From the IMG/VR virus record IMGVR_UViG_3300042556_001279, positions 1-32,413 of that record: a stretch of DNA of 32,413 nucleotides, one strand, 5' to 3'. Both the position numbers and the translations under genes were made by a program. Of this stretch, positions 14,012 through 15,062 are shown piece by piece. Under the pieces are notes generated by a model. That model made no database searches. It saw only the letters and a program-made list of their open reading frames with translations, and was not told the origin of the DNA. Source of the DNA: a virus. The stretch's first letter is position 1, and every line of letters begins with the position of its first letter.

Positions 14012-14151
14012 CCAAGAAATCGGGATGCTGCGGAAACGGCGGCGTCAATGCACTGGGCAACGGCTCGAGCCAGCTCGGAGTCGGTGCCAAGCTGCTGGCC
14101 CAGGCGGACCAAGAGCAGGGAACGAATGATGGCGTCCATGTAGCGTTTCAT
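14008..14151 (-). CDS. Very small hypothetical protein
   Basis: A 47-residue protein (MKRYMDAIIRSLLLVRLGQQ onward) whose ATG 14151 overlaps the TGA of the C5 methyltransferase gene (14150-14148). It is helical and weakly hydrophobic near the start and ends VAQCIDAAVSAASRFLG. The coupling to the methyltransferase is the main support. Its last codons overlap the -35 of the operator B promoter. No function can be given. Confidence 0.5.
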   Translation of the reverse strand: MKRYMDAIIRSLLLVRLGQQLGTDSELARAVAQCIDAAVSAASRFLG

Positions 14152-15062
14152 GTGGTCACCTGGCTTTCGGCTTGAATGATGGCTCGTCCGATGACTTCTG
14201 CGACCTGTGGCACGACGGCGTTTCCGAGGCATCGCAGTCGGTCCACCCGATCGGGTATCCCATGAGCCACTCGACCCACTGCGGGTTCAGTCTCCCACTG
14301 TTGCCTGCATCCATCCGGCCTCGCCCGCCGTCCCCAAGAACTGCATCCGTCAGCGATATCCCCGGATGGGCTTTGCTGGTCGCCGTGTTTCTTGAGCCGC
14401 TGCCGTTTGCGTCTCCTGCAGTTGGCGTCGGCCACTTCCGCACAGCAATCCCCAGGGACGGGCCAGGCTTGCCCTTGGTCTTGCCGTCCTTGTGATCCTG
14501 CACCCGCTGCTCGTAAGCCTCCAGTGGCTCGTCGTGATTCCCCCTGATGGCATGAAACACTGTCGGCGTAGGCCACAAGCCAGACCCTTTCGCGCCGGTG
14601 CGGGGCACCAACGTCGGCAGCGGCAATAACGTGCCATTCGCATACATACCCGACCGAGGCAAGCGCCCGCAGGATTCCGTGGAACGTGCGGCCTCCGTCA
14701 TGGTTGAGAAGGCCGATGGGATTCTCAGCCACAAAGAACCTTGGGCCGAGATCCGCAACAACTCGGAGGGCTTCGCCCCACATCCATCGCTCATCGCTCG
14801 CGCCTTTCTGCTTGCCTGCGTGGCTCACCGGCTGGCACGGCACGCCAGCACATATCAGGTCAACGTGCCACTCGGCGGCATCTCCAACCGGGAACGTGCG
14901 GACGTCAGCCCACCGCTGAACGCCAGGCCAATGCTTTTCCAACACGCGGCTGGCATATGGGTCAATCTCGACCTGCCAGCGGCACTCCATGCCAGCACGC
15001 TCTAGGCCCAAGTCGAAGCCGCCGATCCCGGCGAACAGTGATCCAAACGTCATCGGTCGCAT
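14148..15062 (-). CDS. DNA cytosine-5 methyltransferase (Dcm type)
   Basis: A 304-residue protein with the C5-methyltransferase motifs in order: motif I FGSLFAGIGGFDLGLE (6-21), the acidic EIDPYA (32-37), catalytic GVPCQPVSHAGKQKG (73-87, Cys76), AENP (112-115), PHRRERVWLVA (154-164) and motif X LGNAVVPQVAEVIGRAI (279-295). It transfers a methyl group to cytosine C5 and would protect phage DNA or help control genes; no restriction partner is adjacent. The stretch between motif VIII and motif X is low-complexity, and the same DNA carries a second conserved-looking frame (see 14156-14591). It lies under the operator-controlled early promoters. Confidence 0.9.
   Translation of the reverse strand: MRPMTFGSLFAGIGGFDLGLERAGMECRWQVEIDPYASRVLEKHWPGVQRWADVRTFPVGDAAEWHVDLICAGVPCQPVSHAGKQKGASDERWMWGEALRVVADLGPRFFVAENPIGLLNHDGGRTFHGILRALASVGYVCEWHVIAAADVGAPHRRERVWLVAYADSVSCHQGESRRATGGLRAAGAGSQGRQDQGQAWPVPGDCCAEVADANCRRRKRQRLKKHGDQQSPSGDIADGCSSWGRRARPDGCRQQWETEPAVGRVAHGIPDRVDRLRCLGNAVVPQVAEVIGRAIIQAESQVTT
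14156..14591 (-). other. Alternative +1 frame inside the C5 methyltransferase gene
   Basis: Overlapping the methyltransferase's C-terminal half, the +1 frame is open from at least 14794 to 14156. It carries GLWPTPTVFHAIRGN, a second KWPTPTAGDANGSGS, and SGRLNPQWVEWLMGYPIGWT. These WPTPT and LNPxWVEWLMGxPxGW elements are familiar as C-terminal segments of other phage DNA methyltransferases. They fit directly after the RRERVW block if one base is skipped near GAAAGGG (14591-14585). So the DNA appears to encode two alternative methyltransferase C-termini. This may be an old frameshift, a recombinational overlap or true dual coding. There is no evidence of translation here. Confidence 0.5.

Follow-up and report, generated by a model that had tools for sequence, protein, structure and literature searches.

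A viral C5-cytosine methyltransferase gene appears to encode a second subunit in its +1 frame, an arrangement common in a phage family

The stretch of DNA under study (the window) comprises the 32,413 nt of the viral record IMGVR_UViG_3300042556_001279 in IMG/VR. On its minus strand lies a gene for a DNA C5-cytosine methyltransferase, the product of which we have termed alpha; a second open reading frame, termed beta, is nested within it in the +1 frame. The features of the locus are given below in window coordinates.

15062-14148, minus strand: alpha, predicted C5-methyltransferase catalytic subunit, frame 0, 304 aa
14803..14807, minus strand: AAAGG, Shine-Dalgarno-like sequence, 8 nt 5′ of the beta ATG
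14792..14794, minus strand: putative ATG start codon of beta, invariant in 11 close relatives aligned
14794 (ATG) to 14156 (stop), minus strand: beta, predicted nested gene in the +1 frame, 212 aa
14580..14600, minus strand: motif VIII (HRRERVW) of alpha, containing GAAAGGG (14591-14585)
14297..14575, minus strand: region between motifs VIII and IX, where the beta frame is the better conserved and alpha is an open, weakly constrained passenger linker
14237..14296, minus strand: beta-frame motif IX, GRLNPQWVEWLMGYPIGWTD, matched by hhalign to motif IX of single-chain C5 methyltransferases
14178..14228, minus strand: motif X in the alpha frame, LGNAVVPQVAEVIGRAI, assigned by sequence and a family-wide profile match

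Residues 4-168 of alpha match PF00145 (Pfam; 5.5e-51), the match stopping at residue 168, and the PHROG match of the protein is phrog_363 (2.8e-77). The closest solved structure is that of M.HhaI, residues 12-176 of which align with residues 4-170 of alpha and nothing beyond; alpha residue 170 lies just past motif VIII. Alpha carries the C5-methyltransferase motifs I-VIII, including the catalytic PCQ (residues 75-77, invariant in 19 sequences), as well as motif X, the profile match for which falls in the same open reading frame as motifs I-VIII throughout the family. However, the chain is not that of a complete PF00145 enzyme, in which motifs IX and X accompany I-VIII: motif IX is not recognisable in alpha and occurs only in the +1 frame, where the motif IX-like stretch of beta reads LNPQWVEWLMGYP. 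When the beta motif IX profile was aligned to single-chain C5 methyltransferases with hhalign, the probability was 85-92% with the cut-out motif, and 78% when the whole beta protein was aligned to their motif IX.

Beta comprises WPTPT blocks, a presumed target-recognition region and motif IX. Its PHROG match is phrog_1008 (6.5e-23 for the window beta), a cluster matched by all 114 beta sequences tested. A Pfam search of beta yielded no significant match (an HNH-like domain was also sought there, and not found), and, with E values of up to 10 allowed, a PDB profile search returned zero chains. When beta was modelled by itself with AlphaFold, the mean pLDDT was 59 for the window protein (51 sequences) and 63 for the more typical beta of locus L213 (114 sequences), too low for a fold search and too weak to support the small-domain fold proposed below; such values would also be expected if beta needed its partner subunit in order to fold. 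The sequence-only reading, in which the C-terminal half of the gene codes in two frames, with motif X in the main frame and WPTPT blocks in the +1 frame, is borne out at the place where it was proposed.

In a survey made without reference to beta, 80 viral loci were picked by the N-terminal 88 residues of alpha, a part that is free of overlap with beta in the window; these loci are the best matches to a window-led N-terminal profile and describe its branch, not all phage methyltransferases. The nested arrangement (motif IX in the +1 frame, motif X in frame 0) was found in 59 of the 80. Among the remaining 21 loci, seven encode single-chain enzymes with IX, X and I-VIII in one frame, four more resemble shortened single-chain enzymes, six end at a contig edge, L160 appears to carry an indel, the +1 frame of L161 contains a divergent motif IX and L191 is ambiguous. 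The single-chain-like gene of L141 (2504-3673) has a standard motif IX, RRLTPAECERLQGFPDGW, in the +1 frame and motif X in frame 0; this displacement probably reflects two compensated indels or an assembly error, and the locus was left out of the nested count.

The WPTPT/VEWLMG endings, which had been held to be known as C-termini of other phage methyltransferases, do occur in abundant homologues, but there they sit within methyltransferase genes in the +1 frame: this was so in 78 of 80 loci picked by motif IX, the other two being without the N-terminal part. Likewise, all loci retrieved with the beta protein have beta inside alpha in the +1 frame. No natural fusion or side-by-side arrangement of alpha and beta was seen in the surveyed loci. 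A scan of genome contigs returned two relatives only, both with a motif IX-like stretch in the +1 frame. Isolates with both frames include Acinetobacter phage ABMM1, Lacticaseibacillus phage R9.1, phage C72C1, Paenibacillus phages Shelly and Leyra, Escherichia phage Ivi and Erwinia phage Gungnir39; the records of Shelly and Leyra annotate both genes (in Shelly, as “g55 internal gene”).

The +1 frame of the window is open for 222 codons, as compared to a mean of 114 when the synonymous codons of alpha were shuffled, a length reached in three of 1000 shuffles; for most relatives the corresponding figure is 0-10 per 1000, rising to as many as 157 in a few of the closest, while the +2 frame is as open as expected by chance. 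As this test is favoured by composition as well as by the manner in which the loci were picked, we relied on evolutionary tests instead. In 10 aligned sequences of the window clade, the ratio of substitution rates at third and first codon positions of alpha (D3/D1) changes along the gene: it is 3.4-4.7 upstream of the beta ATG (alpha-only coding), 1.2-1.5 from that ATG to motif VIII (double coding) and mostly 0.3-0.9 between motifs VIII and IX (beta-dominated coding); both frames are coding through motif IX, and past it, at the 3′ end, the ratio is 2.05 (alpha-only coding). Independent clades repeat this order of regions, with a D3/D1 of 0.62-1.14 between VIII and IX. Per codon, synonymous variation of alpha among close relatives falls at the beta ATG. 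Synonymous-site conservation across homologues thus reveals constraint in both frames, and the +1 frame is under selection, not relaxed.

In alignments of the region between VIII and IX, beta outscores alpha in all of 25 clades and has the higher identity in 22 of them; mean identity is 0.450 for beta, 0.374 for alpha and 0.380 for the +2 control, that is, alpha is conserved there no better than a non-coding frame. Upstream of motif VIII, too, the +1 frame is better conserved than the +2 control, by our count in 22 of the 25 clades. Alpha is nevertheless always open between VIII and IX, whereas shuffling the synonymous codons of beta keeps it open at a mean frequency of 0.087 (median 0.028), in a test that presupposes motif IX inside the alpha open reading frame; the +2 frame is open over this interval in 14 of 249 loci. 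A beta downstream of a stopped alpha was seen in no locus of the survey. Alpha is kept open between VIII and IX so that motif X stays reachable.

As to how beta would be made, 62% of the 98 loci examined have a Shine-Dalgarno-like sequence before the first possible start of beta, as compared to 20% of control starts, and 42% have a strong Shine-Dalgarno 5-mer there, as compared to 6%; these figures refer to the first possible start codon, from which the real start may differ. The sequence-only reading had envisaged that a one-base shift near GAAAGGG swaps one ending for the other, the family alternating its C-terminus by frameshift. A programmed +1 frameshift near motif VIII would indeed connect the frame 0 catalytic core with the WPTPT/motif IX frame, as an alternative C-terminus with IX placed behind VIII, but its product would be missing motif X, as far as which alpha is kept open. 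Selection on the +1 frame begins at ATG 14794, about 70 codons upstream of GAAAGGG, and among relatives the constraint on beta and its openness begin about 70-110 codons upstream of motif VIII, at ATGs with ribosome-binding sites. No slippery sequence at motif VIII is shared among the relatives, the nucleotides there being variable, so that the overlap is without the conserved slippery site of a programmed frameshift gene. A single-frame fusion product is encoded in no relative, and a natural fusion of this type was not found in the surveyed loci. With Shine-Dalgarno enrichment, upstream conservation of the +1 frame and no shared slippery sequence, internal initiation is the better explanation for how beta is made, and we consider the frameshift very unlikely. 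Rather than alternative forms of one protein, the products appear to be a pair of subunits.

The small domain of M.HhaI-type enzymes is made up of a variable region and motif IX (PMC3404938). These single-chain enzymes share the catalytic core of alpha but have a single frame for motif VIII, the recognition domain and motifs IX and X. Since beta holds a selected variable region together with motif IX, it is most likely the small domain that completes alpha, the two forming one enzyme. The locus would then very probably encode a two-subunit DNA C5-cytosine methyltransferase, the second subunit being produced by internal initiation. Alpha, read in frame 0, would supply the catalytic domain with motifs I-VIII and X; beta, initiated from a ribosome-binding site of its own at the internal ATG (14794), would supply the small domain, i.e., target recognition and motif IX. 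The linker of alpha between VIII and X would be read from beta-coding DNA, its openness being needed while its amino acid sequence would be of little weight. We infer that alpha and beta associate into one enzyme with methyltransferase activity, probably modifying phage or host DNA. The recognition domain appears to reside in the nested subunit, beta, and it is likely that in this phage C5 family the +1 frame of the catalytic-subunit gene encodes specificity and dictates the linker sequence of the catalytic subunit.

The nested frame could alternatively specify a separate protein with an unrelated role, such as an inhibitor or a mobile nuclease. There are precedents for genes lying out of frame within phage methylases: the ShiLan element is a mobile insertion in which an HNH nuclease is encoded in the third frame inside phage methylases (PMC11855218). 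Beta resembles this HNH gene in being out of frame within a phage methylase gene, and it is without a Pfam match. Yet beta is a constitutive part of the locus, occupies the +1 frame and carries the very motif IX that is missing from alpha and that single-chain enzymes have in their own frame. Almost all family members whose ends can be assessed have it nested, a family-wide rather than patchy presence, and the HNH-like Pfam domain expected of a ShiLan-type insertion was not found in it. We regard an unrelated role as improbable.

That only alpha is real, the +1 frame being open and similar through the composition of alpha and shared ancestry, is hardly tenable: high GC and the composition of alpha do favour an open +1 frame (shuffle mean of about 100 codons) and for a few of the closest relatives the shuffle result is unexceptional, but all 25 clades show better conservation of beta than of alpha between VIII and IX, where the +2 control is on a par with alpha, the reversal of codon phase contradicts this reading already, and ribosome-binding sites are enriched at the first beta starts. 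Just as implausible is an alpha that was formerly a whole single-chain enzyme, with the nested frame the unused fossil of an old frameshift; single-chain relatives with IX and X in one frame exist, but selection is present now, at small divergence (in the window clade and in clade c5), and beta has separate start signals.

For the two-subunit enzyme that we propose, a bacterial counterpart exists. M.EcoHK31I (C5, YGGCCR) consists of two polypeptides, the large one with motifs I-VIII and X and the small one with motif IX, and its predicted recognition domain sits in the large subunit (PMC3404938). By this described architecture, the phage locus is alike: alpha has motifs I-VIII and X, and beta has motif IX. 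Lee et al. are said to have reported in 1995 that M.EcoHK31I beta (176 aa) is nested in alpha (309 aa) in another frame, and that both polypeptides are needed for methylation. In the phage loci, too, the small gene is nested in another frame (+1; 59 of 80 loci). The differences are that the predicted recognition domain of M.EcoHK31I is in the large subunit, whereas the phage data point to beta, and that the locus described here is on a phage contig. M.AquI is a natural C5 methyltransferase split into two subunits between motifs VIII and IX (PMC3404938). The phage enzyme would likewise consist of two subunits parted between VIII and IX, but in M.AquI motif X goes with IX in the small subunit, and the split, in the variable region, is not described as involving nested genes.

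PHROG 363 (alpha) and PHROG 1008 (beta) are phage clusters both labelled “DNA methyltransferase”, labels that are silent on nesting and on subunit status. We did not find the nested arrangement in phages in the open-access literature. The arrangement is known from one bacterial enzyme; what appears to be new, on the evidence of the surveyed loci, is that the nested two-subunit form prevails in a large phage family and that its recognition domain appears to lie in beta.

If this is true, phage genes recorded as a single “Dcm” are half-annotated enzymes: many single cytosine methyltransferase entries in phages would be incomplete without an often unannotated nested subunit, and, as that subunit would be needed for the whole enzyme, codon-optimised expression of the annotated gene would fail. 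A change of recognition module would rewrite both proteins together. These loci would also be a large natural collection of long overlapping genes, one frame of which evolves nearly free in sequence as long as stops are avoided, and the location of the recognition domain in such two-polypeptide C5 methyltransferases becomes directly testable.

In the beta open reading frames of some close relatives (L012-L015, L102, L103, L105 and L106), the recognition region includes a Cys/His-rich, zinc-ribbon-like insert, WIKCPCCExYxCTIHxxHxHDCxCPPIEEW, which the window beta is without. It gave no Pfam match in the two tested; it looks like a swappable recognition module.

Elsewhere in the window, TTGACATCTTTACC occurs exactly twice on the minus strand (14011-13998 and 15366-15353), flanking the methyltransferase gene, with a palindrome-like stretch of the ACCGGTA type after each copy; the 15366 copy is consistent with a sigma-70-like promoter, and the pair is possibly a repeated operator or promoter. 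Also on the minus strand are a 599-aa protein (22947-21148) with a weak RCC1-like repeat match (PF25390, 2.2e-07, under the curated cut-off), a trypsin-like serine protease (17606-16878; PF00089, 4.6e-16) and one protein (10525-8762) in which a RepB-type primase domain is followed by a DnaB-type helicase domain.
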